64,000 nt of DNA from Acholoe squamosa (lineage: Eukaryota; Annelida; Polychaeta; Phyllodocida; Polynoidae). Position 1 is the first letter of the stretch, and each line of letters opens with the position of its first letter. Both the position numbers and the translations under genes were made by a program. The notes beneath the pieces were generated by a model, which saw only the letters and a program-made list of their open reading frames with translations, was not told the origin of the DNA and ran no database searches. This document shows positions 3,172 to 23,401 of the stretch, one piece after another. Where the stretch lies: the NCBI GenBank assembly GCA_949317995.1, contig OX439050.1:16756061-16820060 (forward strand), read 5' to 3'.

Positions 3172-3181
3172 GAAGGGGGGG
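3172..3181 (+). promoter_or_regulatory. G1 polypurine tract
   Basis: GAAGGGGGGG directly before a TG dinucleotide, the expected primer site for plus-strand synthesis and the boundary of the 3' LTR. Confidence 0.7.
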
Positions 3182-3515
3182 TGCCCAAATTATCCATGTT
3201 AATAGTATTGGAACCCATAGACCGCATAGGAAATAACGGCATATGCAAACATTGCGACTGGAGAACCAGAGCGTGACGGTGAGGGGAGAGTGAGTCGTTC
3301 TATTTTTTGAGCATTACCTTATTTGGTCATGGCGTGATGCGCTGTGGACCAATAGGGTTCGCCCTCCTCGGTCACGTAGGCCCTTCCTCCAATTAGAGGC
3401 GTGCGCCGCAGGGATAAAAGGCCGCGCCGCACACCACGGAGGTCACATCTGCGGCCTTCTCGTAAGAGTCGGACGCAGATTAGCTGGACTAAGCCTAGCT
3501 TATTCCAGCTGGTAT
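3182..3515 (+). repeat. G1 3' LTR (right end estimated)
   Basis: Starts with TGCCC after the polypurine tract. It holds promoter-like elements: CCAAT near 3350 and a TATA-like GATAAAAGG at 3413-3421, which would start transcripts about 3440-3450 and so run into the L leader. It does not match the L 3' LTR at 9349-9819, so it is either the G1 LTR alone or a promoter that L shares. The true right end could lie anywhere from about 3450 to 3520. Confidence 0.55.
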
Positions 3516-3533
3516 ACTCCGCCCCGGGGACTC

Positions 3534-3761
3534 CCTACCTGAGTGTAGGAGGTCTCCCCTGCCTAAGTGTCGAGGGACACGACCTGCGTGAGCGCAGGCT
3601 CGTGTTCTCTCGAGGCTCCAGTCTTCGGTCCCTCGAACCGCCTGAGTGCGGATTCGAGGTACATCGAAGGCGCCTTCGAGGCTTCGACCCGCCAGAGTGC
3701 GGATCGAAATACCTCGAAGATCCTCTTCGACGTCTCGTCCCGTCTGAGTACGGTTCGAGAC
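3534..3761 (+). ncRNA. Array of CTGAGT-loop hairpins in the L leader
   Basis: Successive stem-loops read directly from the sequence. A 3534-3549: CCTAC/GTAGG, loop CTGAGT. B about 3552-3576: imperfect, loop CTAAGT. C 3578-3604: stem CACGA.CCTGCG, loop TGAG (or GTGAGC). D 3631-3659: stem CCTCGAA+CCGC, loop CTGAGT. E 3683-3708: stem TTCGA+CCGC, loop CAGAGT. F 3732-3761: stem GTCTCG+CCGT, loop CTGAGT. Between them are two more hairpins, a perfect 16-bp palindrome at 3664-3679 and 3714-3730 (7 bp, loop TCC). Stems differ but stay complementary while loops stay alike, as in structured RNA. The array lies between the probable transcription start and the gag-like ATG at 3810. A packaging or dimerisation role is inference. 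Confidence 0.7.
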
Positions 3762-3809
3762 CCGGAGTCTTCTCTCTCCCTGGTGGAACCCAGCAGTTCA
3801 GGAAGAACC

Positions 3810-3916
3810 ATGGGGTCCTCGTCCGACGAGCAGTCAGGGTACAGTTCTTCGGCGAGCCACAAGTCGCAGAAGAAGAAGAAGTCCAAGAGGACGAGACCCG
3901 AGCAAGAGCTCGAGTC
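3810..3916 (+). pseudogene. L gag-like coding region, first part
   Basis: Begins at ATG 3810 (MGSSSDEQSGYSSSASHKSQ), Ser-rich then Lys/Arg-rich, then acidic. No family recognised. The T1 transposon abuts its right side; the coding character resumes beyond T1 at 6166. Confidence 0.45.
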
Positions 3917-3945
3917 TCACTCTCACCAGATTGGTGAAGGTCTGA
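3917..3945 (+). repeat. T1 left terminal inverted repeat
   Basis: Contains CACTCTCACCAGATTGGTG; its core CACCA-GAT-TGGTG is itself an inverted repeat. Confidence 0.85.
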
Positions 3946-4530: not shown

Positions 4531-4687
4531 CTTAGACAGTTTGCTCTATATTTCTGATACACTTGGTATTTAACTATAACCTTTATGTTCATTATGATAA
4601 CGATGATAGGTCCTGTCTGTTGGTTAATCATACGAAACTGAGAAATATTATGAAAATCCGCAAGGTCAAACGAAGAGGTGTTTTTTT

Positions 4688-4838
4688 GACCACTTGGGTG
4701 GCTCTTTGACCACTTGGGTGGCTCTTTGACCACTTGGGTGGCTCTTTGACCACTTGGGTGGCTTTTTGACCACTTGGGTGGCTCTTTGACCACTTGGTTG
4801 GCTCTTTGACCACTTGGGTGGCTCTTTGACCACCTGAT
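4688..4838 (+). repeat. 20-bp minisatellite in T1
   Basis: Seven contiguous copies of GACCACTTGGGTGGCTCTTT plus a partial eighth, with only one or two substitutions (a T for C near 4753, a T for G near 4798). Each unit holds GTGG...CCAC and could fold. Low divergence against the diverged 200-bp repeat beside it suggests recent expansion. The ORFs that cross it are artefacts of a period that is not a multiple of three. Confidence 0.95.
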
Positions 4839-5625
4839 ATAAATGCATGAAATTACTATAATCATGAATTATTAAGAACACCAGTTCGATATACAATGAT
4901 GTGTACAGCTTACACAGACCATTCTGACTTTTGAAAAATATATTTTGAGAGTTTTTAAAGATCGATAGGGCCTATTTGGCCATTTGGATGGCTCTTTGAC
5001 CAGCTGGGATGGCTCTTTGACCAGCTGGGGTGGCTATTTGACCAGCTGATATAAATCTATGAATTTACAATAATCATAAATGATTGAGAATGCAAATTAG
5101 ATGTGTAATGAAATGTACAGCCTTTGCACTCTATTTTGATTTTAAAAATTTATTTTGAGACTTTCTTTTGGACTACTGGGAGCCTATTTGACCATTTAGG
5201 TGGCTCTTTGACCACCTGAGGCCAGCTATGATAATGGCATGACTTCACCATAATTATGAGTAATTACAAATGCAAATTGAATGTATAATGATGTACAGAT
5301 CCCATGCCCTCTATTCTGACATCTCAAACAATATCTTTTGAACATTTTTGAGGGTATTTTGGTGGCTATTTAATCAATAGGTGGCTCTTTGACCACTAAG
5401 GGCGGCTCTTTGACCAGCTGAGATAATGCCATGACTTTACTATAATCGTGAATAATTACAAATACAAATTAGATGCATAATGATGTATATAGCCTATGAA
5501 CTATACCCTGACCGTTTGAAAATATTTTGAAACACTTTCAAGACTATTTGGGGCCTTTTTTGGCCATTTGGGTGGCTCTTTGACCACTTAGGGTGGCTCT
5601 TTGACAACCACCTGTGGCATGAATG
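4828..5625 (+). repeat. Degenerate ~200-bp tandem repeat in T1
   Basis: Four to five diverged units begin near 4828, 5040, 5208, 5412 and 5604 with GACCA(C/G)CTGA followed by an AT-rich stretch (ATGA.TTTAC.ATAATCATGAATAATTA), then a TGATGTACAG-like segment and a run of TTTTGA. Each ends in one to three copies of the TGGCTCTTTGACCA motif. Spacing is about 170-210 bp. The 20-bp minisatellite is thus the expanded tail of one larger unit. Confidence 0.75.
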
Positions 5626-6134: not shown

Positions 6135-6163
6135 TCAGACCTGCACCAATCTGGTGAGAGTGA
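6135..6163 (-). repeat. T1 right terminal inverted repeat
   Basis: Reverse complement of the left end with one mismatch; followed by CC and then CTCGAGTC. Confidence 0.85.
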
Positions 6164-6165
6164 CC

Positions 6166-7442
6166 CTCGAGTCTACCTCGGCTAAAAGTGCAGCCCTTCT
6201 GAAGCAGATCGAGGAAGCACAGAAAGCCTTGGCCGAGTCCCAGGAGCGGGAGAAGGAGCTCCGCCGGAAGGCGAAAGAGGCATCTAAGCAGCAGAAGCGC
6301 GACTTGAAGGTCGCAGCTGCTGCCGCCTCGAGGGACTCCTCCCCCGACGAGATGGAGGTCGACGAGCCGTCGACACCTGCTCCATCGAAAAGTGCTACCC
6401 CTTCAGGTTTTAAGGGCAAGAAGCCCACTGAATCGAAGGCATCCAAGGGTACCTTGAAAGACTTCAAGATCCCTAAGGTGCCCAAGAAGGAAGGTAGCAA
6501 GAAGGAATCCGCAGCCAAGAAGGCTCCAGCCCGGGAAAGGAGTAGCGAGTCTACTGCACCACCGGAGCCTGGAACCGAGCCGTCGGAGGTCGATGCCGGT
6601 GCCGTGGAGAGCACCGTATCCTCACCCCCAGACACGGCCAAGGCTGTCGACGAGTGGAAGCGGCTGTCAGCGATCACTGCCAAACGACGTACTGAGTACG
6701 TCGATGACAGGCCACTGACCAAGCTTCAGGACTACCGCAAGAACGGTCAAGTGGTACTCCCTAGTCTCGTCGGGAAGGATGGTAGTGACAACGAGGAATG
6801 GTATTCGGACGATAGTCATGCCATTGACTGGTATGTCTCAATGATTGAGAATATCACGAATGCCTCAGACTCGTCGGGGGTGTCGCTGCCCGAGCGACAG
6901 CGGATTGGATTCGCATGGCGTATCTTCAATCCAGGGCAGCAGTGTGCTTTCGAGAACTGCACACGTAAGGGGTTCCCCCCTCACGTATACGCGACAGACG
7001 GCAGGTATGCTCGACACTTGGTTGAAGAGCATCGAGCCATCCGTCCGCAGTTCGGTTGTGTTAAGGTGGAAAAGACCATTCCACACTGATGCCCGCTTTC
7101 TATGGTGCCTACCCCGAGTTCAGGGTAGAGCAACGGAAGAAGCGGGAGGCCAGTCGTCCTCGAGACCCAGGACCGACAGCTTCTACGAGTGGGAACAAGA
7201 GGCCCCACTCTACAGAAGCTGGGAAGTCTGCCGGTTCGACTGAACCCAAGAAGCCTAAGCCGCAGGCTGCTCCCTCGAAGCCCGAAAAGGCATCGAAAGC
7301 CGCCCCGGCCCCGGCTCCTAAAAAGTCGAAGACTGCTTCGACCGGTTCGGCCAAACCAAGCACCAGTGGTGCTAAAACTGGAGGCAAGACGGTGGAATCC
7401 CAGAGTGGTCGTGATCGGCAACCCAAGGTGACCACCAACTAG
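6166..7442 (+). pseudogene. L gag-like region: coiled coil, basic linkers, C2H2-like finger
   Basis: Starts with a heptad-like Glu/Lys/Ala coiled coil (SAALLKQIEEAQKALAESQ) and a Lys-Pro-Ser-Ala linker, then a folded-looking block with WKRLSAITAKRRTEYVDD and EEWYSDDSHAIDWYVSMI. Near 6943-7040 a C-x4-C-x18-H-x4-H pattern (CAFENC ... HLVEEH) resembles a C2H2 zinc finger. A Lys/Pro/Ala-rich tail follows. No canonical gypsy gag or CCHC knuckle is present. Its position after an LTR and leader suggests a gag role (inference). The fossil has breaks. Confidence 0.5.
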
Positions 7443-7594
7443 TCTCCCCCTGTCAAACCCCCTGCGGCGGCGGAGGACAGCACCCCAGCTGCCACGCCGC
7501 GTGTCCACGTGGGAGGCGCGACACTGACCTCGGCAGCAGGAGCTAGCTTCTCCAACGTCGTGACAGGCGCCGACACCCCGACAGCAACCTTGCG

Positions 7595-8785
7595 TTGGGA
7601 GTTGGCACAGCCTGCATACGGCGATGGCGTCAGCGTGGGGTCCCGAAGACGTTCGTGGAACGTTGTAAGGGACTTCTACAGATGACGGGCAGCCCTGCTA
7701 TCAACAAATTCGGTGAGGCATTTCGTGAGAAAGCGAGTGCCTACTTGTTCGGCCTGTTTGATAGAACAAACATGGCCATCCGTAACGAGCTCCTTCCGGC
7801 TCTTAGGGATGAGGCGCGCCAGACCGTTCAGATGGAGATGGACTCTCGTCTGACCAATGTTCGAACGCGTCTCAATAACTTTAAGTCACAAGCCCAATAT
7901 GATATTATCAAGAGGGATAGTATCATAGAAGGCTGGGAGGAAATCGACCGCGAAGTCTTCGGGGTCCAACTCTCGGAATGGATGAAGGACAAGCACCATG
8001 GCGTCCGAACCCTGAAGCCCGTTCGAACCGAGCCCTCTCGCGAAGCACAGAGGTACCTCGTCGAGGGTGGAGTGGTCCCTGACGTCAGGACGCTGGCGGC
8101 TCAGACGAATCCTTTGAGAGAATTGTCTCCAAAGATGGACAGTCTGAGCTCGGCTATGACGATGTTGGGCCGAGAGCAGGTGGTGCAGGACAAGCCTGAC
8201 ACCCCGGGTAGGTCTCTCGGCGCCTCCGTCTACCCACCAGCAGCCCCGTCTTCCTCCTCGGTTCCCTTGATAACCCTCTCGGGAGCCACTGAGCCTACAC
8301 CGCCACCGGTCCAGAGAGTGGTGTCACCGATGATCCATCCGGATCTTCATGGCATCACACCTCTGGCCCCGGCGAATGTAGCCGTCTGCCCGGACCCGTC
8401 GGCTTCCGCCCAAGCAGTAGAACCTGCCGAGGCGGAACAGTCGATGGATATAGACGGGGACGTCGATGTCGTCGATCAATCTCCAACGGCTCCCCCTGAC
8501 CAGGGAGACAAGGACGACCATGAAGGTCAGGAGAGCGACGACGACGACGGAAGCGACTCAGCAGACTCGGCCGTTCTCCACTCAGATGCTGAGGGGGACT
8601 CCCGGGATGCACCCGAGACCTCTAACGAGGCTTGGAGTACGACAATGGACCGTGTGGCCCCCTTGCCGGAGTCGCCGACGTTTTCGGGCCAGCTAGCCGC
8701 CAGCGCTTCACATGAGGAGGAGCGCACTGACGGAGAGCAGGCTGAAATCGACGCCGCTACAGGGTCCATCTCGGAGGATCAGTAG
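7595..8785 (+). pseudogene. L gag-like region: helical block and acidic tail
   Basis: The middle part, about residues 30-165, is helical and charged (AINKFGEAFREKASAYLFGLF, then RNELLPALRDEARQTVQM) and could be a capsid-like domain; I recognise no family. It is followed by a Pro/Ser-rich linker and a very acidic tail (GDKDDHEGQESDDDDGSDSAD). Codons are GC-rich, unlike the AT-rich T1 transposon inside the same element. No Cys-His knuckle, protease or RT is seen. The first residues of the open frame may not be native. Confidence 0.5.
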
Positions 8786-9340
8786 TATGATACTACTGCT
8801 CCTCCCCTTCAGCTTGGATTGCTGACATCGAACAGAGTCTCGATGTCAGCACGGAACCCCCGGGAACTCGTTCCCGGACGACGGTGTACCCTCCACGAGT
8901 GGGGGTACCTCTCCAGTCCCTGGACCTTCCTGCGAAGCTGTGTGGATCCGACGCCACCCTGGTCTTAGGGCCCGGTGGTGCTACACATCCTCGGCCTCAC
9001 GGTCGAAGGACCATCATAGTAGTACTATACACTATCGATGGGCTTCCTACGCTGGAAGGAGCTTCTCAACGAGACAGGGAGGAAACGACACGACCCCGGT
9101 TGCCATACCCGGTCGTGCCTCCCTCGGATCGACCAGGAGCAGGTCGTGAAGCAGTGTTTCGACACTGGTGTCCTACGTTGGATGGAGCAACGCCTTATAA
9201 CTAACTGTGATAATAATTTTTTTTCTACAGTACAGTAGAAACTATATTTCTATATATTCATCTACTGTTTCTGTCGACTATGTCTAATTGTTTAGACTGA
9301 TCCAGGGTCTCTGAATTTTCAGAGACCTCGTTTCAGTCTA
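8780..9340 (+). ncRNA. L 3' non-coding region, dense in hairpins
   Basis: Perfect or near-perfect stem-loops in series: 8780-8798 (9 bp around one G, overlapping the stop of the preceding ORF); 8821-8850 (11 bp, loop ACAGAGTC); 8860-8877 (CCGGGAA/TTCCCGG, loop CTCG); 8886-8908 (8 bp with one G-T, loop CACGAGT); 8912-8924 (TCCAG/CTGGA); 9152-9167 (CAGTGT/ACACTG, loop TTCG); 9306-9327 (10 bp, loop TT). Two of the loops contain GAGT, as in the leader array. The only long ORFs here have no recognisable domain. Confidence 0.65.
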
Positions 9341-9348
9341 GTGGGGGG
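9293..9348 (+). promoter_or_regulatory. Two-step hairpin and polypurine tract of L
   Basis: TAGACTGA (9293-9300) pairs with TCAGTCTA (9333-9340), enclosing the perfect 10-bp hairpin 9306-9327; GTGGGGGG (9341-9348) follows at once. The TAGAC segment can also pair upstream with GTCTA at 9282-9286, so two exclusive folds are possible. Confidence 0.6.
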
Positions 9349-9819
9349 TGGTGTGGTAGTCCCGCGTCGTCTTCGAGGTACCTTCGTGGTCCTCGTGGGC
9401 GACGTCGAGAGCACCTCTATTACCCGACGCCTGGGGGCGCTGGAGTCCGGCGCCACGTCACCACTTAGTCACGTGGCCCTCGACTCCAGTGTATATAAGG
9501 CCGTTGTACGGCCTTCCTCAGGGTCAGTCCAGCCCTGACTGACCATCGTGAGCGATGGTTGGCGGCTGCCCGGCTACCATATTCTAGTACTCCTCTGTGC
9601 TGCTGCACAGAGGAGGTGTATGTGGAATATCAACTGTAGACACTAGAACGCCTAGTGTCGAACCTGTTTTAGAGTTCAAATTCTGCCACCTGTAACTGTG
9701 ATCGAGAACGGCTGATGCCTATGTGTTATTAGACAATAAAGTTTTAACTGGAACCTGAATAGTTGTTCTTCGTTGTTTATCGAAGATTCGATTGAACATC
9801 GAGGGGTAGAACACTACAC
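9349..9819 (+). repeat. L 3' LTR
   Basis: Runs from TGGTGTGG after the polypurine tract to ACACTACA at the junction with the minus-strand G2 sequence. TATA box GTATATAAGG at 9491-9500; AATAAA at 9735-9740. The R-like part holds hairpins at 9543-9558 (CCATCG/CGATGG, loop TGAG), 9591-9614 (10 bp perfect, loop TGCT) and 9639-9659 (8 bp, loop AACGC). The 5' limit could be three bases further right (TGTGG). Confidence 0.75.
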
Positions 9820-11009
9820 TTTCATTGCTAGCATCCCTATCCAGTATGAAATGCCCATCCTCGGATGGATATTGCAGTACTGGAGTACTCGTGAACAAGG
9901 CTTTTAATTTTTGGAAAGCTTGTTCTTGTTCGGTTCCCCAAGGGAACTTATCCTTTCTACTTCCAGGGGTCCATGTCGTTAAGATTTGTAAGGGATAACT
10001 TACCCGAGAATAATTCGGTATAAAGTCTCTGTAATATGAACAGAATCCCAAAAATGACCTTACTTCCTTTGGATTTTGCGGTACACCCCAGTCCGTTACT
10101 GCCTAAATTTTTTAGGATCAGGTTTTATTCCATCACCATATATTATTCGGCCCAAATAATTTATGGACGTTTTAAACAAATTACATTTCTTCGGTTTAAA
10201 CCGTTAGATATTATTCTCTCTAAAACTAGCTTGAGGTTGTGTAAGCATTCGTCAAAAGTTTTACCGAATACTATAATGTCATCAAGGTAAACTAGTCACC
10301 TTTTCCATAATAGATCGCTCAAGAGTGTCTCCATCATGGCTTCAAAGGTTGCCAGAGCATTACATAAGCCAAAAGGCATAACATTATACTGGAACAAACC
10401 TATATGACTCGAAAAGGCTGTCTTTTCCATATCATCCGGGTTCATTCCTACTTGCCAGTATCTGGACTGCAAGTCCAGGGTACAAAACCATTTATTACCT
10501 CCCAAGGAGTCAATAGTTTCATCAATCCTTGGCAATGGGTACGAATTTTCCTTCGTTAAACCACTTAGTTTCCTATAGTCTATGCAGAATCGGATAGACA
10601 CATCCTTTTTAGTCACCATACATACCGGACTACTCCAAGGACTGCTAGAGGGAATTATTACATTCCGTTCCAACATCTTAGCTATTTCGGCTTCCGCTAC
10701 CCTTTTCTTCGGTAGGGGTAGCCTCCGATACAGGATCTTGAAGGGCAGCGCCTCTCCCGTGTCAATGGTATGTAATACCTTCGTGGTCTTTCCGAGTGGT
10801 TCACCCGGTGCGGCAAACGCTTTCTGATATTTCACCATTAGTTCTTTAAGCGCTTCTATTTCGAAGGATCCTCTAAACTCGTATCCTCGTACATTTTCCC
10901 TCAAACCTTCGGTCCATCCCTGTTCAACCGTTTCAACCGGAAGGTTCAGGGAACAACTAGTCATTGTTTCAGCCAATGTAACGGTACCAAAAATGAATCC
11001 CTTTTCCAA
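9820..11009 (-). pseudogene. pol: G2 reverse transcriptase and RNase H start
   Basis: RT motifs: MVTKKDVSIRFCIDYRKLSGLT, SYPLPRIDETIDSLGG, KWFCTLDLQSRYWQV, NVMPFGLCNALATFEAMME. Left of these come the connection (MGFCSYYRDFIPNYSRVSYPLQ) and the first RNase H strand (GHFILDRDAS). Closely similar to the G3 RT. Fossil with breaks. Confidence 0.85.
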
Positions 11010-11012
11010 ATA

Positions 11013-11837
11013 TCATGTCCTGTTACCTGTGTTGGAAAACGGTATGACTGACCAAGCCCCATTGGCTACTATCGTGTCTACCGATTCCAATCCTATAGCA
11101 GCCAGCATAACCGTATTCGGCTCAATTACTGCATCCTGGTTCTTTAATTCGGAATTACCCCGAACCAGAACGTCGTATGCTACTCCCGCAGGAATCTTTA
11201 CAGTCTGGGCGGCGGACGCCACACTGCTGACTTGTCTTAATACACATTGTACTTTCACAGGATAAGGATGCTTCACACTCAGCTCACCCGTGCGCGGGTC
11301 CAAGACTGCCCCATACAGTGCCGCAAAGTCCAATCCTAATATCCCTTCATCCGCTATGCCGGCAATCGTAGTGGTTATCACATACTCGTGAGTACCCTCA
11401 AATTGCAATTTCACACACGTCTTACCATATGTTTGCATCTTACTACCGTCGGCCGTTTGGGCGTTTCCTCCCAATAGGAGAGTATCGCGCACATCCTGTA
11501 TAAGATCCGCTATCTTCCGAGAGACACAGGAATGGCTAGCTCCCATATCAACTAGGAATTCAGCAGGTCTTCCATTGATATTAAGCGAAACATACCACCG
11601 CCTTCCATGCAACATGGAAGGTACATCAGTAATTACAGAATCCTCATTATTCGCACCCGGGTCCCGTCCACATCCTTTTAAGTATTCCAGACAAGGATGG
11701 CCCAGGGGTAGGTGAGCACTACCAACTCTGGCCAACAAACAACCTCCTACCTCCAATCCGGTACCGGGTTTCCCCTGTTTTCCCTGTGCACTTGTTGTAC
11801 CGGATTCCCCAATCTTCTGAGTGGGCTCCCTTACCAC
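11013..11837 (-). pseudogene. G2 retropepsin-like protease
   Basis: About 275 residues with an aspartic-protease core: FLVDMGASHSCVSRKIADLI (active-site-like D-x-GAS), then GILGLDFAALYGAVLDP, which resembles the second conserved motif of retropepsins, and VQCVLRQVSSVASAAQTVKIPAG downstream. The same block is found in G3 at 20590-21671, so the two elements are relatives. It lies between the zinc knuckle and RT, as expected in gypsy. Confidence 0.75.
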
Positions 11838-11947
11838 CTCAGTATTGGGCGAATGTGTTACTCCATTCGGTTCTGCACCACTGCTGGTGATATCATGGCA
11901 AGTGACTTTTCTGGGACCCTGTTGCTTGCCTGTAACAGAATCCCTTT

Positions 11948-12217
11948 CTAGTTTTCCTTATCCTCTATGGTAGAAAATCTCATCCACGTTCTATACCCCG
12001 GTTTCTCTGCCACACATTCAGCAGCGAAATGTCCTAGGTCTTGGCACCTGTAGCACCGCCTCTGTGACTTAGCTACCCTTGGGCATCGCAGAGCATCCGT
12101 TATCCAAGTAACTAGATTCTCCATAAAATCACCCGGAGCAGTCGACACTTCTACCTGAGGAGTAGAGAATGTGGGTAACTGTGGCACCGGTAATTGTGTT
12201 ACCGGTTTCTGCGGCAC
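11948..12217 (-). pseudogene. gag: G2 zinc knuckle (nucleocapsid-like)
   Basis: A CCHC knuckle, CYRCQDLGHFAAEC, fits C-x2-C-x4-H-x4-C and would bind RNA. It is preceded by a Pro/Gln/Val repeat (PQLPVPQLP). Confidence 0.8.
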
Positions 12218-12337
12218 CGGTAGCTGAGGTGCTACGGGTAATGCATCTCCAATGGGTTTCTGGAAGTTTGTTTTCTTCTTTAAACCTCCCTTTCGGTACC
12301 TTTTCTGCCGATAATATTTACCGGCAATTTGTACAGA

Positions 12338-13048
12338 TCAGATATATTCTCCATTGTCATCAGAGATATATTCGTAATCGGAGTCCATTGGACTGGACTC
12401 AACCGCAGCAGTGTATTCACGTATGGGCAGATCACTTTTAACTGCCGAAGCTCTTGCAGGGGGTGCATTCGCACCTAGCAACCGCTTCTTTCTATCATAG
12501 TTCTCGATAGCCATGAACAGATCATTGAAGGAAGTATCGTCCTTCCATTCATCCCAGGCCACTGTCTTATGTTCCGAATCACGGAGTCCGGCAATGAATT
12601 GAGTGAATAACTCCTGTATCCAGCATTCATCGTCGTATTCCCAATTAGGCCTAGCTTTACTAAGCAGGTCCTGTAATTCTAGCCCAAAGACCTTATGTGA
12701 TTCTCTGGGTTTCTGTGTCCGTCTCTTAAATGTGATCCAAGGATCTTCTCGGACAATAGAACCAAATAGGTAGCAGGCACACTCTAACAATTCGTCATAG
12801 GTACCCTCAATTCCATATTCTTTTCTCCACCTGTTCAGGGCCACTTTACCTCCCTTACTAAGCCAGCAGACTAAATACGGTAATGCTTCGTCTTTAGTCC
12901 ATCCGCTACAATTTACCTCATCTACAAAGATCTGGTAATTGTCTTTCCAAGGTTCATTCGGATCGTATGGTGGAGGTATCTGAGCCATAAGACGCGCAGG
13001 ATTGGGACAGCCCTTAAGCCGGTTGGCTTCTTTCAAACTCCAGTCCAA
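12338..13048 (-). pseudogene. gag: G2 gag (capsid-like, retrotransposon gag family)
   Basis: Helical segment PWKDNYQIFVDEVNCSGWTK, LPYLVCWLSKGGKVALNRW, ESHKVFGLELQDLLSKARP and WIQELFTQFIAGLRD follows the pattern of the gypsy gag capsid domain, with a final acidic and Tyr-rich tail. It is followed by the zinc knuckle and protease. Confidence 0.75.
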
Positions 13049-13080
13049 ACTCCCGCTCCTTTACGATAGCAATCGATTCC

Positions 13081-15099
13081 TTATCCCTGAATGCATTTAC
13101 TGTTATCAAAAATTTCTTGCATTCCGGGAGACATAGAAGAACACCTGTTCATTTTCTTACGCCTTCTTCCGTCTCCTTGACTAGCACCATCTGGGGTATT
13201 ACCCCCACCCCCTGGTCCTCCCGGTGGATATCCTCCACCTCCGGATCCGCCTGATGGGTAACCTCCACCTTCGGATCCTCCTGATGGATGTCTACCACCT
13301 CCAGATCCTCCTGATGGGTAACCTCCACCTCCGGATCCTCCTGATGGGTAACCTCCACCTCCGGATCCGCCTGATGGATATCTACCACCTCCGGATCCTC
13401 CCGGTGGGTAACCTCCACCCACGGATCCTCCTGATGGATAACCTCCACCTCCGGATCCTCCTGATGGGTAACCTCCACCTCCGGATCCGTCTGATGGATA
13501 TCTACCACCTCCGGATCCTCCTGATGGATATCTACCACCTCCGGATCCTCCTGATGGATAACCTCCATCTCCTCTATAGCCTTGGCCAGCCCCTTGCCCA
13601 AAATAATTTGAATTTTGGGTATAGGTATAGCCGGTATTAATACCGTCATAGCCGTAGCTATTCGCTTGGTTTCCTCGGAAACCATGGGAGTCATTTGATG
13701 GAGGTTGATCACCACCGGTATACATCCTTGGATGTGGGCTATGTACATTTTGTACTTGGGTGTTACCTACATAAGTTGGACGAGATGGGGCATTCTGAGA
13801 ATGCATATCAGGCATTGTATTCCTTGTAGGAGGATGTGGAGTACTTGCTCCGGGACCAGGATTAGAAGGTCCCGGGACGGATTTGGGTGGGTCTGGTTGT
13901 TTCGGGTTCTTCTGCCGATGTCTATCTTGTCTACCTGAACCATCGTTATTTGGATCTAAAGGATACCCTGCTCCACCAGCGGCTGACATTATATTCGTCA
14001 AAAAGGGCAATTGGGGTACGGGTGGGGCTTTTACATTGTTTACGGGTGGAGTATTATGAAAACTACCTGTAGTAGGTGCTGTTGTTCCATTAGTTGCGGA
14101 ACCTACTCCATTTGGGGGCATATTAGGTTTATAGATACCTCCTGCCACGTGTTTATCAGCCCCATCGGTTACAAAAGGTTTATACCTCGTGGAGCCGGCC
14201 ACAGGTGTCGCACTCTGCGATCCTATGGCATTATTATCGTCTACTGCAGATCCTGCTTGTAAACGACTAGCCAATTGTACGATGATTGTATCGTCTAGTG
14301 GGCCAATTGCTTGTTGGGTTTGTTCTACATAGTCACCCAATGCAGCTGCAGTATTCTGTAAATCCTGCAGTTCGAGTAGGTAATCATCCCGATCATTCAT
14401 TAACTGCTCGTTATATCGGAGGATACCTATTCGGACAGTTTCATTATCTTCAGCCTGCTTAACACAACATTGTTTCAGGCGCTCGTATTCTGTCTGTAGC
14501 GATTGCTTTGCATTTTGGAATTGGATTTCCTCTTCATGCAACTGCTGCTTCAGAGTTTGTCTCTCATTTTCAAACTCATTTCTCATATCTCGGATATTTT
14601 CTAAAATATCCTCCTTCTTCTGAGATGCTTCATCTTTAGCTCTCGCTATCAGGTTCAGCGTTTCATTCATAGCCAGATATTGCTGGTTCATTTCATCCAT
14701 TTCCCGATTATATTTATCATGATCTGGAACGGTGAAAGTTACATTCCCAGTGGTTATCGCACTACAATCAAGTGGTGGTAATTGCCCTGGGACATCGTAA
14801 GGAAGTTCACCAAAGGTTACCTTCCTCGGCATAGGAGCCGGATGATTCGGATCATGGCTTCCTCCTGTTTCGAACAAAGAATCTGCTAATTCCAAATTAA
14901 CAGAATAATGTTGATTGACACGTTCAACCCTGTGTTTCACCAGGATTGAATCTGGGACATTCTCCTCACTATCCGCATAGTGAGGTATCGTATCCCTCCA
15001 TTGCTGGTCCCTGGAGGGCGCATTAAATTGCGCCAAGTCCTCCCGGGTCTCATTCGGATTGGCGACATACGCCAATCTTGTATTCACCTGTTTGGACAC
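13081..15099 (-). pseudogene. G2 first ORF: coiled coil plus Gly-rich repeats
   Basis: About 672 residues, starting MSKQVNTRLAYVANPNETRE some 50 bases inside the LTR. Residues about 120-260 form a long coiled coil (MNQQYLAMNETLNLIARAKD, ENERQTLKQQLHEEEIQFQN). Then a Pro/Asn/Gly-rich stretch and about 13 decapeptide repeats of type YPSGGSGGGG, then a short basic end. An ORF of this kind ahead of gag is unusual for gypsy; a particle-assembly or RNA-binding role is a guess. It looks open throughout. Confidence 0.7.
13200..13580 (-). repeat. 30-bp coding minisatellite (Tyr-Pro-Ser-Gly-Gly decapeptides)
   Basis: About 12-13 tandem copies of a 30-bp unit containing GGATCCTCCTGATGGGTAAC on the plus strand, in phase with the G2 ORF. 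Variants alternate ACCTCC and CTACCA in the middle (Gly-Tyr against Arg-Tyr), and the order of variants looks like unequal exchange of multi-unit blocks. Long ORFs in other frames here are shadows of the 30-bp period. Confidence 0.9.
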
Positions 15100-15133
15100 T
15101 ATGTGTCCGGGCTATACATGTTGCCGAACCCAC

Positions 15134-15148
15134 TGATCACGGCACCAG
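15134..15148 (-). promoter_or_regulatory. G2 primer-binding site (putative)
   Basis: On the minus strand, directly after the LTR end ATTACA and one base, TGGTGCCGTGATCAG starts with TGG as a tRNA primer site should. Nearly the same sequence follows the G3 LTR. I could not match it to a tRNA. Confidence 0.55.
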
Positions 15149-15533
15149 TGTAATGGGTTCTTCCCTCTACTCTAGTGACAGACGAGCCAACAAGAAGAGG
15201 ATTCCGGTGTATGCGAACAGGTTTTATTATGTTCCGTATGACACAACACGGCTACCCGGAGGTAGCTCGGATAGTTTCTAACAGATGCCGGATTCTCTAG
15301 TTAGGCTTTAGAGATCTCTATACAGTGGTGGTCTTACTAACTCTGACGCGGCAACTGAGCCCTGTCCTCCTTTTATAGGTAAGGACAGTGGCGCCACACC
15401 GTGCCTCTCTCACACCTCCCGAACAGATGCTGCCACCTATCCGGCAGGTGGAGGGCGAAGCCCGGGTGGCTGACTCACCCACCGCGCCAAAGGACCATAG
15501 TGTTGTTAACATGTATATATACATACCTCTACA
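15149..15533 (-). repeat. G2 5' LTR
   Basis: 385 bp, TGTAGAGG...ATTACA on the minus strand. TATAAAAG (plus-strand complement near 15370-15377) and AATAAAA (complement near 15224-15230) are in the order expected for U3-R-U5. Confidence 0.8.
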
Positions 15534-17220
15534 ATGGTAAAGAATACCCAATTTGGAATTGAGCTGGTCAATCCAAATCAGGTAAAATTTACCAACTGGC
15601 GTGTCGTGAGGACCAGACTTCATCCACTCCTCATCGTAGCTGTCACCATCCTTATTAACGGCGCCTGGGCACATGTAGTGGATCGTGTCATATGCACAAT
15701 CCGAAAAACAGCGGGGGACACGGTCTTTAAATCCCTCGGCTGCATTCTTCCACATCCATTTCTGATTTTCGTCCTTGGGGATGTCCGTGGTCATTTCTTC
15801 CCACGTCGTCATGGACTCCAAATCAGATTTGGCTGACGCGGGCAGCTCCGGGTCGCTTTCGCTTCCTGAGTCGCTGCTCGTGTAGATGCCCGCTCCTCTA
15901 GGTTGGGCTCAGCTGGTGATAGTAGTACCAGTCAAAGCCACAACCGAGGTGGTGGCGGCCGTCCCGCTGGTGGTAACAGTGGGCGCTGCAGTAACCGGGG
16001 TGGCTACTGTGGCTGTAGTGGGTTTGGAGGCCGCAGCCTTCGGGTCGCCCTTATCCCTCTTCTTGGTAGTAGAGGGTTCGGGCTCCGCCGGAGATGCTTT
16101 GGCTCCATTCTTCTTTTTCTTCCTTCCCTTGGATGGCTGTGGTGGGGCCTCGGAGCTGGAATCCGATTTACGGGACTCCTTGTCCTTAGCCCGAGTGCTC
16201 CTCCTACTACTGACTGGTGTGTCAGTGCTGGAGGTGGCACTCGCCTGGAGTTGAGCCTGCTGCTTGCGGTGCGCCTGGCGGGCAGCGGCTAGCTCCTTCT
16301 GCTGCTCGTCAAGCTTCAGCGCTTGGCTTCAACAGCAGCTTGCTGGCGAGAGATATCCTCGTCCGAGATGCCACCAGCCGCCTCAGGTATACTGGCGCCT
16401 GGCTCCTTCTTGGACTTAGACCTCTCAATCGCTATCCGAAGGTCCTCCTCCTCGAGATCAGACTCGGTCAATGGCCCCTTCGGCATAGGCTTAATGCTCA
16501 ATTTCTTGGTCCGTCCTGATTCCACCGACGACTGTGTGACAGTGGAGTCTGTATCCATTTCCGACTCAGATTCTCTGAGCTGGCTCGCCTTCCGGGTAAT
16601 CCCTTCGGACAGAAGCACAGCTCGAGCCAAGTTCTTGTCTAGCGCCATAGCCCCCCCCCCAACCGTCTATAGTTGCGGAGCCATGACACAGGCATGTTCT
16701 CGGCTAACTCGTCCGTACATGAGTCTATTACCAGAGTCTTGAAATCATCTGGGATATTCTCGGGTTGGCTGGGCACTTCCGCTAGGGGACCGCATCCAAA
16801 CATGAAAAGATGCATGGGGATGTACGTCCCCCAGCTCGTGTACACCACATCCTGGTCCTCATCCACGTGGGCGAGACGCTGGGTGCGGGTCCTGAATCCC
16901 GGAGGATACAGCGGAATGTCCATGACATCTATTCCCGGCGGACAAGACGGGTTCGCTGGACCCGATGCTGAGGGTACTGGACCCGGATTCGGTGGAGGAG
17001 GCATCCGCTCCCTGTCTGCGACCTCAGTCGACATGGCAGAGAGAGTTTGGGCGGCTTCTTCCACTTCTGGTTCTCGTCCGAGACCAGTATTAGAGGACTC
17101 CATGGTCTCCTCTACCCGAGACGAGACCGTCGGGTCCTCGCCTTCATCCAACTCAACGTTGGCAGTTTGACGCGCAGCGTCAATCGTCCCCTGTGCCATC
17201 AAAGTGAGGCGATCTTCCAA
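15534..17220 (-). pseudogene. M gag-like coding region
   Basis: Begins MEDRLTLMAQGTIDAARQTA, then an acidic block, a Pro-rich linker and a more ordered segment (DVVYTSWGTYIPMHLFMFG, DDFKTLVIDSCTDELAENMP). A charged part follows (LRIAIERSKSKKEPG), then Lys/Pro/Ala/Thr-rich low complexity near 15890-16200. Last is a Cys-containing block, WKNAAEGFKDRVPRCFSDCAYDT then IHYMCPGAV, next to the G2 LTR. No family recognised; style resembles the L polyprotein but I see no clear sequence match. Breaks are present. Confidence 0.45.
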
Positions 17221-17279
17221 TATAAAATTGGCAGTAGTTGTGTTGGACTCCTCCCGAAGGATTCGTCCAATGAAAATAA

Positions 17280-17634
17280 ATTAAAAAGACACAGCTATAA
17301 GCTGCGAGAGGGTGTAAAATAACTGGAGCAAAACCAGTGATGTCTTACCGCCACGATTCCGCCCTACTTATGAACAACATGGCGCCTGACCTCTCGTCTC
17401 GCAAAATCCCGCTATGGGCTATCCGGTGACCTAGTTCCGCGCGTTCCCGCCACCCCGGTGGCCTCACCTAGCTGACTAGAATCGAACTAAAATTCGGCTC
17501 AGTATATGGGACGCAGGTTGCTACCCGGGTGCTATCATCTGGAGCTTGGTGGTATATACATCGCTATAAAGCAAATGTACCGGTTAATCCGTCCACCGCT
17601 CACGGCTACGGCTACCCGAGGAACACGCGTTCAA
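17280..17634 (-). repeat. LTR candidate between G3 pol and M
   Basis: On the minus strand a G-rich run (GGCTGGGGG, complement at 17635-17643) precedes TGTTGAACGCG, as a polypurine tract precedes an LTR. The other end may be TTTTCA near 17273-17280, followed by TGGACGAATCC. It does not match the G3 5' LTR, so it may belong to M or to another family. Confidence 0.4.
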
Positions 17635-17683
17635 CACCCCCAGCCTACGACGGACAACACGCAGTAGCTCATTGTGTACTGAG

Positions 17684-18226
17684 TTAGGTAACGGCGGACC
17701 TCAGCCGAGGACTGCGTCTAACGCCTTGGGTTAGCATTTTATTCTTCCCGGCTCTACATACGGCCTTCTCCGGGTCGCGCCTAGCCACGGCGAGACCCTT
17801 CCCATATGTAATGCCATCACTCAGCGAGACATTTTTCCGTTTCTTACGATTAGGCCGTTTCCTGGCCGTCGTCTTCCTTTTAGAAGCTACCTTCGCCTCC
17901 GGGTGCTTCCTAGGCCGACCTCTAGGGTGTTTCTCGGGTACCGCTACGCTAGCCTTACTTAACATTGGCCTAGGGGGTTGGTATCCGAACTCCCTCTCCG
18001 CCACTTCTCGTCCCTTCCAGGGCCGAAGCTTTCCTACGTTCGTTTTCCACCTTCTACCAGTCTGGCAGTCTTCCATCATCACTGTAGACTCGGAGATGAT
18101 GCGCACAATCTTGAATGGACCCTCCAAAGGCGTTACGAGCTTCAAGCGTTCGAGTGGCTCGTAATACCTTAGTACCTTGTCCCCTATATTAAAGCGTATT
18201 CTTTTTGCATTGGTGTCATACCCCAC
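17684..18226 (-). pseudogene. pol: G3 integrase C-terminal region and basic tail
   Basis: RFNIGDKVLRYYEPLERLKL, then PLEGPFKIVRIISESTVMM is the GPY/F-type module that follows the integrase core. A Lys/Arg-rich tail (KRKTTARKRPNRKKRKNVS) parallels the G1 tail. Confidence 0.8.
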
Positions 18227-18558
18227 CTTCTGCCATTTAGCACTTTTCAGCAGTTCTTTACAAACGGCCTCCTATGCATGCTTGAATCTGTCCCGTAACG
18301 ACTCCACAAACAACACAGTGCAGGGCGCCTCCGGGTCTATCCCAACCACTCCGTACACTAAGTCGGCGGGCATAATTATGTCCTCGCGGGATACCAAGAG
18401 GTTTGGAGTGCAATTGGTAGATGAATGGACAGTGTTGTTGTAGGCGTGTACTACGAACTCGCACTGTTCATCCCATCGTCCTGGTGGGTATTAACCAGGG
18501 GTTTTAGTACTCGTATCAAAGTCCTATTGAACCTTTCCACCTGACCATCCGACTATGG

Positions 18559-19240
18559 TCAGTATGGGTTGGTTCGGGTCTTACATATTGCTAAGTAATG
18601 GCACATTTCCTGCCATAACTCTGACTCAAACTCTCTTCCTTGGTCACTGTGCATCATGGGGGGCACACCAAAATGTAGCACCCAGCCTTTCACAAATGCT
18701 TCGGCACATGTGGCGGCTTTGTGGTTTGGAAGTGGAAACACCCGAGTATACTTTGTATAGTAGTCTGTGAAGACCATCATACAGGTGTTCTCTCTAGGCG
18801 TCATTTTAAATCCACTGATGATGTCGATTGCTACTCGGGCAAATCGGACACCAAACAGTTCCTGGGACAAGGGTAGCTTGCCTAGGCCTGGTCCTGGCTT
18901 GTTTTTACAACAATCTGGGCAAGTTGCGATCCACCGAAGTAGGTCACTTCTCATACCGGGCCAGTAGTATCGTCTTTGCAGACGCTCTATGGATCTTTTC
19001 TTTCCAAAATGGCCACTCGTTTGGTGGCCATGACAATAATACATGATATCCCTTCTCATAGAGGTGGGAATCACTATAAGTTTGTAATTGCTTACTGCCG
19101 GTAGAAGTGGTCTTCCACCTACACAGTATACCATCTCGGATCTCCAGCTCGGTCCATTGAGCTATCAATCGCCTCGTCTCTCTGTCTTCCAGAGATAACA
19201 TCGGCCTTACCGGCTTAATACCTTTCCGCAAGTATTCCAT
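18559..19240 (-). pseudogene. pol: G3 integrase zinc domain and core
   Basis: HHCC domain: HGHQTSGHFGKKRS and CPDCC. Core: AIDIISGFKMTPRENTCMMV and HSDQGREFESELW carry the first two acidic residues of the D-D-E triad. Close to the G1 integrase in both sequence and order. Fossil. Confidence 0.85.
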
Positions 19241-19461
19241 TATGCGCGCAGTGGTGGGGTCCGACTGTTGGAACTTCTTGATGGTCTCCGGGGACCAATC
19301 GAGATAGCTACATACAGCCTCCTCCCAGGGGAAGGGGGGGTGGTATACACCAACCCTGCGACCACAGCATTTTGGGCCCCGCAGTCTTCACAAGTGGCAT
19401 TCTGGCACTTTCGGACAGGTCGCCTCAATAAGGCATCCGCCATAATATGCTTTGCACCCGG

Positions 19462-20565
19462 TCAGTGCTCGATCTGCTTATGGTCCAATCCGAACTCGGA
19501 TAAATGACCTAACCATCTCACAATCATCCCTTCGGCGTCCTTAAAATTAAGAAGCCACCTTAGAGACGAATGGTCAGTCCGTAAAGTGAAGTCAGTTCCC
19601 CACAGAAAGTGCTTAAACTTCTTCGTATACACCACTACTGCAAGAAGTTCTCTTTTAGTGGTACAATAGTTACGCTGGGTCTTGCTTAACGTGTTGCTAG
19701 CAAATGCTAATGGGACCATGACTCCATTCTGGACCTGAGAGAGGGCTGCACCTATAGCATCGTTGCTCGCATCGGTGTCTAGTATGAAATGCCCTTCGGG
19801 AATAGGATATTTCAATACCTGTGTATTCCTAAACAAATCTTTTATTTTGCTAAAAGATTCTTCCTGCTCGCTGGTCCATGGGAATGGCTCCCGAGCCCTA
19901 CCCGGGGTCCAGTGAGCTAAACATTGCATGGGAAAGCTTACACGGGAGTAATTTGGTATAAAATCACGGTAATAGGAACAAATTCCTAAAAATTATCTAA
20001 CCTCCTTAGCACTCGTGGGCCTTTTCCAATTTTTAACCGCCTCCAACTTTTCCGGATCTGCACTCACCCCACTAGGGGTTATGATCCTTCCCAAGTATGT
20101 AATTGTTTTCTTGAACAGGTTACATTTCTCGGGTTTAAGTTTTAGACCGTTGGATAGGATCCGGTCGAGTACCAGCTGCAGGTTCGCGTGGCATTCCTTA
20201 AACGACTTGCCAAATATGACAACGTCGTCTAGGTAGACCAAACACTTCTTCCACAGAAGGTCACTCAGCAGGGATTCCATCATGGCCTCAAATGTAGCCG
20301 GGGCGTTACACAATCCGAAGGGCAAGACAATATACTCGAATAGCCCCATATGGCTAGAGAAAGCTGTTTTCTCTATGTCATCGGGGTGCATCGGTATCTG
20401 CCAATACCCGGATTGCAAGTCCATGGTACAGAACCATTGGTTCCCACCCAAGCTATCTAAGGTCTCGTCTATCCTTGGAAGGGGATACGAGTTCTTCTTT
20501 GTCATACCGTTTAACTTTCGGTAATCCACGCAAAAGCGGATTGTACCGTCTTTCTTAGTGGTCAT
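19462..20565 (-). pseudogene. pol: G3 reverse transcriptase and RNase H
   Basis: RT: TTKKDGTIRFCVDYRKLNGM, WFCTMDLQSGYWQIPM, VLPFGLCNAPATFEAMMESL, CLVYLDDVVIFGKSF (YLDD active site), YLGRIITPSG. RNase H: HFILDTDASNDAIGAALSQ, TKRELLAVVVYTKKF, LRTDHSSLRWLL. The catalytic residues are legible. Fossil with breaks. Confidence 0.88.
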
Positions 20566-20589
20566 ACAAACGGGGCTGGACCAAGGGCT

Positions 20590-21671
20590 TCAGCTGGGCA
20601 CGATTACCCCTAGGTCCAGTTGTTTTTGTATTTCCTGTTCACATATAAACTTCTTCTTAAGAGGAAGTCTATGATACGGGATCTTGAAAGGCTTCTTGTC
20701 GCCCACATCTATAGTGTGCAACACCTCATCGGATCTACCCACGGGTCCTCCTTCCCTACCGAAAGCACTCTCGTACCTTCGCAAGAGGTCCCCCAGGCAT
20801 TCCTTGTCCTCCGTATTCTGTAAATCTGATCTATCAATCAGTTTCTTGAATTCTTCATCCAGTGGATGCTTACTAACAGGGTTTAGTGGTTTATTGAACC
20901 TGGCCTCGGCGACGTGTTCTACCGAATTCATTTCACCTACACTGTTGCCCTGCTTCAAGTAAACCACCGAACCAGTTCGGTTAGTTATGGGTAATACAGA
21001 CCATGCTGCATTAGCCACCAATGTATCCACTGAGTCCAACCCGATGCTCGATAAGTATACCGTATCGGGTTCAAAGACTCCTGCTTCACCCTTCTGGGCC
21101 ATTGATATGCCAGAAAGGACATCACAAATGGTTCCCGGAGGGATTTTCACCGTGTGTATAACCGATGCTACCGAAGACACTTGTCTCAAGACGCACTGAA
21201 CATGCAAGCCATACGGATTCGGAATGCTCATCATTCCATCCCTCGGGTCCAAGACGGCTCCGTATAAGCTTGCAAAATCCAATCCAAGGATTCCGTCATC
21301 ACTAACCTCTGCAATAGTTGGCGAAAGAACGAATTCTTTGCCTCCTATTCGGATAGGCATAAACGTCCTACCAAAAGTCCTCATAGTGCTTCCGTCAGCC
21401 GTGCAAGCATTTACCCCTGTTTGAGGTTCTCATGACTGCTGGCCACCGAGTCGAAGAATCTTTTGGACACACAGGAATGGCTAGCTCCAGTATCCACTAA
21501 GAATTCTCCTACCCGGCCTTCCACAGATATGGGTACATACCACCGTCTCCCTCCCAAGGGGGATGGGTTGCTGGTAAACTGTTGAAAGTCTCCCGAATCA
21601 CCAAGATTCAATCCGAGTCCTCTCAAAAATTCCAGACACGGATGACTTGGGGGAAGGCGTGTCCCGCACAC
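20590..21671 (-). pseudogene. G3 retropepsin-like protease and linker to RT
   Basis: FLVDTGASHSCVSKRFFDSV is the D-T-GAS active site; DGILGLDFASLYGAVLDPRD the second motif. Downstream is a DTLVANAAWSVLPITNRTGS block also found in G2, then FKIPYHRLPLKKKFICEQEI leading into RT. Confidence 0.8.
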
Positions 21672-22910
21672 TCAAATCAACTCTTTGATCCTTACTCACT
21701 GAGGGAACATTCGCATGCTCCTGTTCCTGTAAATAACTTTCCATGGCGGATTTATTCATCGTTAGGGTGGCCACGTCAGTGGTTAAGTTCCTCTGTTCCT
21801 CTCTTAGCTGTGCATTTTCTGATAAGATCTCGGATCGGATCTTCTCATTATCTGCTACAGCTCGATTCCTTTCTTCCTGGGCCGCTATTGCTTCCCTTTT
21901 CAAAGTATCTTTTAGTAAACGATAATTCTCACCCTTTTCCTTTTGAGACCTTTGGTACTCGCTGGTCTCTCTTCGGATCTCGGCTTGTTCCGAGACCAAC
22001 TTGGCTTCTGTCTCCGCTTTACGGAGCTGAAGTCTTTTCAATTTTTCCTCCATGGCATGCAATTCTGATTGTAATTTGCTTACATCCCGGGCCTTAGCAA
22101 CTTCCTCGGCTCTAGCCTTCTCAATTGCTCTTAGTCTATTGGCTTCCTCAAGTTCTAGGTCAGCCAACTTGCTATCTTTTTCTTTTTCATCCTTCTCTTT
22201 TAGTTCCAACCGATGGGCTAGAGAGAATAACCGATACTTGAGGTCGGATTCTTTTAGAATCACCTCCTGTTCGACAGAACGGAGCATTCCGATCCGTTCC
22301 TTTGTCTCATCTTCGATTTTCTTCTGGGCAGCTATGAATTGTTCATGTTGTCTCTTAGCTTGTTGCTCTACCTGTTCTTTGGCTTTCAAATAGGCCAAAG
22401 TAGTCTTATACCCGGGGCCCATCCGACGTCCATACCTCGACTTACGAGGTATCTTAATGTATCTCGAGGCCTAATTCTCATAGTGGTTGAAGAACCTTTC
22501 GGGTCTTCTTCATCCTTACCATCGTCACTCTCATGATCAGACGATGTCATCAATGGGGCCACTCCGGTTGCCCCATCTACTGCAGTGCCCATAGGGGTCA
22601 CTGTACGTTGCATCGGGCTTTGAGCTTTTGGGGTATCCAAGATGCCAGTAGAGCCCGCTGGGGTATTAGGTCCAAGCTGGCGCCTACTACTTAACACTTG
22701 GGACCAATCGCTCAAGTTTAACCTGGCGGGTTTAATTACCCCGCTAAACAACCCTGTATCCGAACCAACCTGTCGAGGTGTCGGATACAATTTAACAATC
22801 CCATCTCCAATTCTGGTGGGATCGTCTGCTAGACAAGGTGTCGAGAAAACTGTCTGGACACCTTCCGGGTTGAACACATGTTGTTGACCCGGTTTCCAGT
22901 CTAACAACAA
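21598..22910 (-). pseudogene. G3 first ORF: Pro/Ser region and long coiled coil
   Basis: First part (LLDWKPGQQHVFNPEGV) is low complexity. From about 22420 down runs one of the longest coiled coils in the window (KAKEQVEQQAKRQHEQFIAA, KLKRLQLRKAETEAKLVSEQ), about 200 residues of Glu/Lys/Gln heptads. It occupies the place of the coiled-coil ORF of G2. Fossil with breaks. Confidence 0.7.
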
Positions 22911-23023
22911 ATGCTGGGATGAGTAATCATCCTCTTCGAATCCCTCTAGCCCAGGGCTGGAGGGACCCGCATTAGGTTCCCTGAGGCTTTCGGCTGTTTG
23001 GCCGTGCTCCGCCCCCGAACCAA

Positions 23024-23038
23024 CTGGTCACGGCACCA
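23024..23038 (-). promoter_or_regulatory. G3 primer-binding site (putative)
   Basis: Minus strand TGGTGCCGTGACCAG just inside the LTR end ATTACA; shared with G2 except for one base. Confidence 0.55.
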
Positions 23039-23401
23039 GTGTAATGGTTCATATCGACTTAAATGTTGGGTGGCTTGTTGGCTCGCTTATCACTAAAGAT
23101 ACCAACACAACACGAGTAGTTCGGGTTGGGCAAAGCCCCAGACTCCCCTACCGCTCGGGTAGGCCTTTATTTATGTACTCTCTGCTTGGCATATATGTCT
23201 TGACTGGACCAGGTCCAGTCCCCTTCTGCGGATCGTCCGGCTTCTTAGTAGAAGCTGGACGCGAGGCATGGTGCTGCCCCCTCTTGTACCAAACGGGTAT
23301 CGCGAAGCAACACCTGGTTGGCATAGAAGGAACGAGCACCAGACAAGCACGTCTCTCGGATGAACCGCACTAATATATATACAACGATGCCGGCCCCTAC
23401 A
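23039..23401 (-). repeat. G3 5' LTR
   Basis: 363 bp, TGTAGGGGCC...ATTACA on the minus strand; TATATATA complement near 23372-23381 and AATAAAGG complement near 23164-23171. Only its last bases resemble the G2 LTR. Confidence 0.75.

Follow-up and report, generated by a model that had tools for sequence, protein, structure and literature searches.

The Ty3/gypsy element and its post-integrase region

In the 64-kb window, that is, the whole stretch of DNA analysed here, Pfam RT_RNaseH, Integrase_H2C2 and rve domains were detected above cut-off at 2-1903 on the plus strand, together with an RT fragment below cut-off, and these sequences belong to a Ty3/gypsy element, hereafter gypsy A. The integrase tail of gypsy A continues at 1907-2862 after one in-frame stop and shows 39% identity over ~97 residues to that of gypsy C, another gypsy element of the window. 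The region containing the hairpin array (region L) lies on the same strand, directly 3' of the RNase H and integrase sequences of gypsy A and 5' of an LTR-like segment, and is most likely the post-integrase accessory region (ORF3 position) of gypsy A, not a gag element. Since the 5' LTR lies beyond the window, we infer that the region with the array belongs to gypsy A, which is probable. The earlier note had placed the array in the leader of a gag-like element; the position in the leader of an ORF was retained, but the host gene reads as a post-integrase accessory region and looks more like an accessory ORF3 than gag, although the absence of Pfam matches is no proof of this.

The accessory ORF, as translated, begins with a Ser/Lys-rich N-terminal piece (3810-3937, plus strand) that starts at the first ATG after a predicted transcription start, and its remaining pieces are found in more than one frame at 6139-8782 (plus strand). 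The latter comprise a Lys-rich part with a coiled-coil look, a C2H2-like stretch recognised by eye and a piece starting with a helix of ~90 residues, and a KKKKSKR stretch is present in the accessory product. Structure modelling of one piece gave this single long ~90-residue helix at the start, mostly with pLDDT >90 (overall 71.6), and a second modelled piece gave no usable model (pLDDT 38.7). A PDB sequence search with one piece returned 0 matches, and protein scans together with a DNA pattern revealed no relatives of region L in viral contigs. The post-integrase ORFs of gypsy A and gypsy C aligned with a score of 44, which was reached by 9 of 500 shuffles, and their other matches were of low complexity; homology of the two accessory genes, as judged from sequence, is suggestive only. 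Diverse non-envelope genes between pol and the 3' LTR are likewise reported as ORF3 of rotifer LTR retrotransposons (PMC5408684, PMC5718144), whereas the four accessory pieces scanned here, the C2H2-like stretch included, gave no Pfam match above cut-off, and the abstract on the rotifer ORF3 mentions no hairpin array (PMC5408684). The accessory ORF is interrupted by an AT-rich stretch of 2.2 kb (34.7% G+C), which may be an intron or an insertion. Since the ORF is interrupted and lies in more than one frame, this copy is decayed, and therefore only a past function can be argued.

Upstream of the accessory ORF, a putative promoter was predicted from sequence at 3349-3446 (plus strand), with CCAAT at 3349-3353, a TATA-like GATAAAAGG at 3413-3421 and an initiator-like TCAC at 3443-3446. 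A TATA-to-TCA pattern, written after these sites had been seen, had five matches in the window, namely this promoter, 9492 and 15377 (minus strand) in the LTR-like segments of gypsy A and gypsy B, and 30429 and 42590 in repeat copies, and the LTR of gypsy C gave no match to it. The LTR-like segment of gypsy A was delimited by sequence at about 9352-9818 (plus strand), with an approximate start preceded by a G-run (9343-9348). It contains a TATA at 9492, a hairpin with a UGAG tetraloop at 9549-9552 and AATAAA at 9735, and its end, ACTACA (9813-9818), resembles ATTACA, in which two other gypsy LTRs terminate. The stretch 3181-3830 was also considered as an LTR and was rejected, as it has no AATAAA, ATTAAA or TTACA/CTACA end and no repeat of it was found in the repeat searches.

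Gypsy B and gypsy C, with LTR ends, occupy 9819-23430 on the minus strand, and each has a primer-site-like CTGGTGCCGTGA after the LTR end. The ORFs that follow the integrase of gypsy C extend as far as the LTR of gypsy B, and gypsy A appears to lie inside the RT of gypsy B. At the place of gag in gypsy B, an ORF (13201-13572, minus strand) contains a 30-base repeat with 12.4 copies, coding for Gly/Ser/Tyr/Pro-rich units. In the AT-rich stretch of the accessory region, a minisatellite with a 20-21-base unit similar to GGTGGCTCTTTGACCACTT was found at 4685-5618; the stretch is bracketed by a 48-base inverted repeat (3898-3945 and 6135-6181, 87.5% identical), and splice-like ends were noted by eye at its edges. 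Further downstream, an element that is DIRS-like by appearance (35410-39828, plus strand) has an RT matching Pfam RVT_1 and a downstream ORF with a sub-threshold match to Phage_integrase (19.9 bits vs a cut-off of 27.1), and 26500-64000 contains diverged repeats of kilobase scale, in which six tRNA-Ser(TGA) genes lie.

Anatomy and predicted fold of the hairpin array

The array of five small hairpins with a similar exposed loop in the leader of this retrotransposon gene is a genuine feature. It extends over 3529-3773 on the plus strand and consists of one simple hairpin (H1) followed by four two-tier units (U3-U6). H1 (3530-3553) presents the loop CTGAGT (3539-3544) on a simple stem with a pair probability of 0.96-0.97. 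Among the two-tier units, U3 (3568-3618) carries the loop GTGAGC (3588-3593), which displays a UGAG tetraloop, while CTGAGT (3642-3647), CAGAGT (3693-3698) and CTGAGT (3744-3749) are the loops of U4 (3623-3672), U5 (3674-3722) and U6 (3725-3773), three units identified by tandem repetition, fold and pair changes. Each of the hexaloops is closed by 4-5 perfect pairs. The displayed loops are all of the form nnAG, with UGAG in four of the five and AGAG in one, and the outer stem of U6 is offset relative to the outer stems of U4 and U5.

When 3440-3812 was folded, the inner four pairs of H1, U3, U4, U5 and U6 had probabilities of 0.88-1.0, and the loops were unpaired with a probability of at least 0.87, with the exception of the closing G-C of U3. 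A further candidate with the loop CTAAGT (3563), which the earlier note had included in its set of loops, had a probability of 0.0 at all five stem pairs in this fold, so that five hairpins of the six are predicted to form. Over all six candidates, the A and the G are the only invariant loop columns.

The leader 3440-3812 has a predicted folding energy of -182.4 kcal/mol (z -7.4), which was equalled in 0 of 100 shuffles, and the predicted transcript leader of 366 nt has one of -177.8 kcal/mol. Two hairpins preceding the array are present in the fold at 3447-3480 and 3482-3510 (plus strand). At the junction of U4 and U5, the sequence contains a 16-nt perfect palindrome (3664-3679), which could form a hairpin with the palindromic loop GGCGCC; a fold that includes junction hairpins has a less favourable energy than one without them (-71.6 vs -79.5 kcal/mol).

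Divergence of the units and occurrence in the window

Tandem Repeats Finder reported a 51-base unit with 2.5 copies and 75% matches covering the three hairpins U4-U6, and since these share one tandem repeat, part of their loop identity is due to descent. A covariance model built from U4-U6 recovered the more diverged U3, which had been left out of the model, at E 0.0093, and with filters off it gave no match below E 1 outside the array in the 64 kb. H1 was not found by this model. The array itself was also matched three times on the minus strand, because the units are nearly self-complementary.

The stems were found to have changed on both sides while remaining complementary, as the earlier note had claimed, and to an extent beyond most shuffles. 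In the inner stems of the six candidates, both-sided change was observed in 3 of 5 pairs with 83.3% of cells paired (3 pairs were reached by 42 of 500 shuffles and the covariation score by 11 of 500; slid versions gave 0 pairs). For U4-U6, both-sided change was found in 4 of 16 pairs with 87.5% of cells paired (4 pairs were reached in 12 of 500 shuffles, the covariation score was reached in 4 of 500, and slid versions gave 0-2 pairs). In the model alignment of U3-U6, both-sided change was seen in 6 of 16 pairs, with 57 of 64 cells paired; among 5000 column shuffles, 23 reached 6 pairs and 2 reached 57 paired cells, and slid versions gave 0-3 pairs, the structure being derived from U3-U6 themselves so that the alignment leans towards it. 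All these counts are of covariation among the units of a single array and not among independent copies. One of the stem changes is A-T vs T-A, for which there is no route through a G-U pair alone. Pairing was kept while the units of the array diverged, and the evidence for pairing is stronger than in the earlier note.

Conservation of the loops was less pronounced. Over the five displayed hairpins, identity was 90% in loop columns and 76% in stem columns, and 791 of the 8008 random choices of 6 of the 16 columns were equally conserved as the loops. The proposal that loops had been held while stems changed is therefore weakly true, with a difference in the expected direction that is not significant, and loops no more conserved than the flanking bases, which had been named as grounds for refutation, are compatible with these data. 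A preference for the transcribed strand, as expected for RNA shape rather than DNA inverted repeats, was likewise not found, since the folding z of 3529-3768 was -6.46 on the plus strand and -7.01 on the minus strand. G-U pairs made up 7 of 124 pairs in the leader fold of the plus strand and 9 of 132 in that of the minus strand; with an equally good minus-strand fold and so few G-U pairs, the fold does not tell the strands apart. It is nevertheless probably RNA and not DNA that matters here. A binding site for a DNA-binding dimer, which would hold the arms and leave the spacer free, was disfavoured by reasoning only.

To describe the occurrence of such loops, all six-base loops closed by at least 4 perfect pairs on the plus strand were listed, giving 453 hexaloops in 64 kb. 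The motif [CG][TA][GA]AG[TC] fits 7 of them, five in the array, one at 9548 in the LTR-like segment and one at 23131, and two further hexaloops on the minus strand of the 64 kb. Because this motif had been picked after viewing the data, a motif-free cluster test was added, in which a cluster was defined as at least 3 hexaloops differing by no more than 1 base within 300 nt, with stems disregarded. The array is the sole such place in the 64 kb, and no cluster was found in 60 dinucleotide shuffles of the whole window or in 2000 of 3441-3812, where two such loops occurred in 33 of 2000. For loops of 4 and 5 bases, further clusters occur in the window, most of them in the minisatellite or formed by loose matches. 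In predicted folds, UGAG accounted for 4 of the 9 apical loops of the leader. The corresponding figures were 2 of 42 for gypsy A pol, 1 of 43 for the accessory ORF and 1 of 7 for the LTR-like segment, and UGAG was absent from the 20 apical loops of the insert and the 9 of the 3' stretch; these counts are approximate because the fold windows overlap.

The stability of the array alone is not special, since other stretches of the first 24 kb have an equal or lower z: among 180-base windows from 1 to ~24000, several reached -6.0 to -7.3, compared with -5.81 for the best array window, and those folding better lie in gypsy genes, the minisatellite and the LTR-like segment. At the Rfam gathering score, the six tRNAs were the only matches in the window, all outside the array. 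Three sub-threshold Rfam matches with 3380-3830 (best E 0.045) and 3600-3780 (best E 0.018) were judged to be due to chance; a single control stretch, 9346-9800, gave weaker matches (E 2.8 and 4.1). The corresponding stretch of gypsy C contains no array and no hexaloop cluster (z -0.15 on its own minus strand and -0.48 on the other strand), indicating that the array is not general to these gypsy elements. In the literature searched, which mostly excluded subscription papers, no report of tandem hairpin arrays in LTR elements or of CAB boxes in retrotransposons was found.

Possible roles of the array

The array may have had no RNA function, if its inverted repeats are products of templated mutation, in which a DNA polymerase or RT switches strand or template, and its loops are shared through tandem copying. 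This explanation, which we consider rather unlikely, agrees with the equally good minus-strand fold, with the low folding z elsewhere in the first 24 kb and with the non-significant loop conservation, and in 12 of the 15 stretches tested, perfect hairpins of at least 7 pairs outnumbered their average over 15 shuffles, with a strong excess in LTR elements (gypsy A, 7 vs 0.93; gypsy C, 9 vs 1.8; LTR-like segment, 6 vs 0.2). Long perfect arms are few in the leader itself (1 vs a shuffle mean of 0.33), and its helices are interrupted, whereas copying of arms should yield runs of perfect pairing. Several of the matched changes are single pairs between unchanged ones, although the pairs 10-38, 11-37 and 12-36 adjoin, and H1 has the same loop on a stem that the unit model misses. 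Control of translation of the accessory ORF, in which the stable leader would hinder scanning and an IRES or a protein switch would be used, is also unlikely, and more so. No ATG lies between the predicted start and the one that opens the accessory ORF (3810), and a stable hairpin is located few bases from this predicted start; the transcription start itself is only a prediction, the lack of any ATG in 3444-3809 has a chance of 0.11 by shuffles, and control of translation would explain the stability but not the recurring loop. That the array stretch encodes a protein with a 17-residue repeat is highly improbable. The period of 51 is divisible by three, and an open frame of 185 codons is present at 3380-3937 (plus strand; chance 0.0085 by 2000 shuffles), but this frame has no ATG, the ATG at 3810 is in a different frame, and ungapped differences between units are spread evenly over codon positions 1/2/3 (6/7/9, 3/2/3 and 3/4/5). 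A coding repeat was rejected on the missing ATG and the flat codon positions.

Two other candidate roles involve a protein that reads the loops. The array would be a packaging or assembly signal if Gag or an accessory protein recognised the loops in genomic RNA, with the palindrome possibly aiding dimerisation, and this is unlikely, its probability lying between those given above for templated mutation and for control of translation. The packaging signals of HBV, which are read by the core protein, are described as stem-loops with an RGAG loop motif (PMC8677749), and like the array they form a set of stem-loops that belong to a reverse-transcribing element and have a purine-rich loop motif in common. 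They differ in occupying separate places of the genome, compared with a tandem array here, and in having R at position 1, which only the AGAG loop fits, since the other four have U (PMC8677749). Palindromes have been implicated in the dimerisation of Ty1 and Ty3 RNA (PMC4974528, PMC11381356), and a 16-nt palindrome lies inside the array. The place of the array bears on packaging in both directions: in Ty1, Ty3 and HIV-1, the sequences known to act in dimerisation and packaging are reported from the structured 5' end (PMC11381356), whereas the array lies 3' of pol, but Ty3 packaging is reported to need UTR/POL sequences (PMC4974528, PMC11381356), so that a site near pol is possible and the place is compatible with packaging. 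With the predicted internal promoter, the array would also be part of a subgenomic RNA, which argues against a classical genome-only signal. Alternatively, the array may be a series of CAB boxes, at which host WDR79/TCAB1 would bind ugAG terminal loops and take the element RNA to Cajal bodies; if so, retrotransposon RNA would use the nuclear route of telomerase RNA and scaRNAs via WDR79/TCAB1. The CAB box consensus is given as ugAG in terminal loops, and a truncated box C/D RNA that was given UGAG at the tip of a hairpin co-purified with WDR79 and accumulated in Cajal bodies, both of which were abolished when the last G was changed (PMC4041459). All five displayed loops fit nnAG and four fit UGAG, the A and the G are the invariant loop columns, and a further UGAG tetraloop hairpin lies in the LTR-like segment (9549). 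This role is nevertheless very unlikely, as the motif has four bases and was matched after the fact, and AluACA RNAs with CAB boxes are reported to bind WDR79/TCAB1 yet stay nucleoplasmic (PMC4371746). The CAB-box hairpins of box H/ACA scaRNAs share the ugAG terminal loop (PMC4041459, PMC4371746), whereas here five sites stand in a row in an mRNA or genomic RNA leader with no H/ACA RNA match at the Rfam gathering score in the window; the best sub-threshold one, a trypanosomatid H/ACA snoRNA, scored 21.7 bits vs 50 and was aligned across two units. According to unpublished data cited in PMC4041459, a CAB box by itself is not enough to tether WDR79 in vitro and its distance from the H/ACA core is important, and an array outside the H/ACA context said to be needed for WDR79 binding counts against CAB boxes.

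The explanation that we tentatively favour is that the array was a multi-site protein-docking element in the leader of the accessory gene, most plausibly serving to route the element RNA in the nucleus or to export it, although the odds of this whole reading are below even. In this mechanism, each ~50-nt unit would be a two-tier hairpin presenting an nnAG loop, mostly UGAG, the tandem copies would provide several equal sites in a row, and the accessory product or a host factor would load on the array and route or export the element RNA. That a protein reads the array loops is about an even chance; that nuclear routing or export was the purpose, argued by analogy, is possible but doubtful. Among the putative uses, nuclear routing or export is ranked first and packaging next. 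Export takes the first place because the region sits where Cer1, a gypsy-type LTR element of C. elegans, has CERV, and because a basic stretch and a long helix are present in the accessory product. The Cer1 ORF between pol and the 3' LTR is part of CERV and is without known homologues outside nematodes, and CERV is described as a nuclear protein with a KRKK signal and a leucine zipper that is needed for export of unspliced Cer1 genomic RNA (PMC10309623). The likeness to the docking element proposed here lies in an extra ORF between pol and the 3' LTR, and the comparison is one of position and analogy, not homology. CERV is made from a 5-exon mRNA sharing exons with gag, whereas an RNA array is seen here, and the passages on CERV describe no response element and no hairpin array, while Rev and NXF1 export are mentioned in the same paper (PMC10309623).

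With respect to RNA elements that act in export, the MPMV constitutive transport element (CTE) and the HIV Rev response element recruit an export factor, and the array is similar to them in being a structured RNA. The CTE presents internal loops, whereas the array presents terminal loops. To our knowledge, few RNA trafficking signals are known in animal Ty3/gypsy elements, and the array points to a possible RNA-protein contact in an animal-like element of this type. It offers an RNA of ~240 bases with built-in controls, in which changes in the loops can be compared with paired changes in the stems. Should the loops be read by a nuclear factor of the host, the array would illustrate the use of host RNA routing by an LTR element.

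In addition, hairpin-rich stretches were observed in other parts of the window. Perfect hairpins are 5 to 30 times as frequent as the shuffle mean at 1-2862, 8786-9800 and 18501-23027, which are LTR-element stretches, and 2 to 4 times elsewhere, including non-LTR repeats, with values of 1.1 for the DIRS-like element and 0.9 for the AT-rich insert. Stable hairpins attributed to gypsy A are predicted at 8820-8851 (AGAG, 12 pairs) and 9539-9562 (UGAG, 10 pairs).
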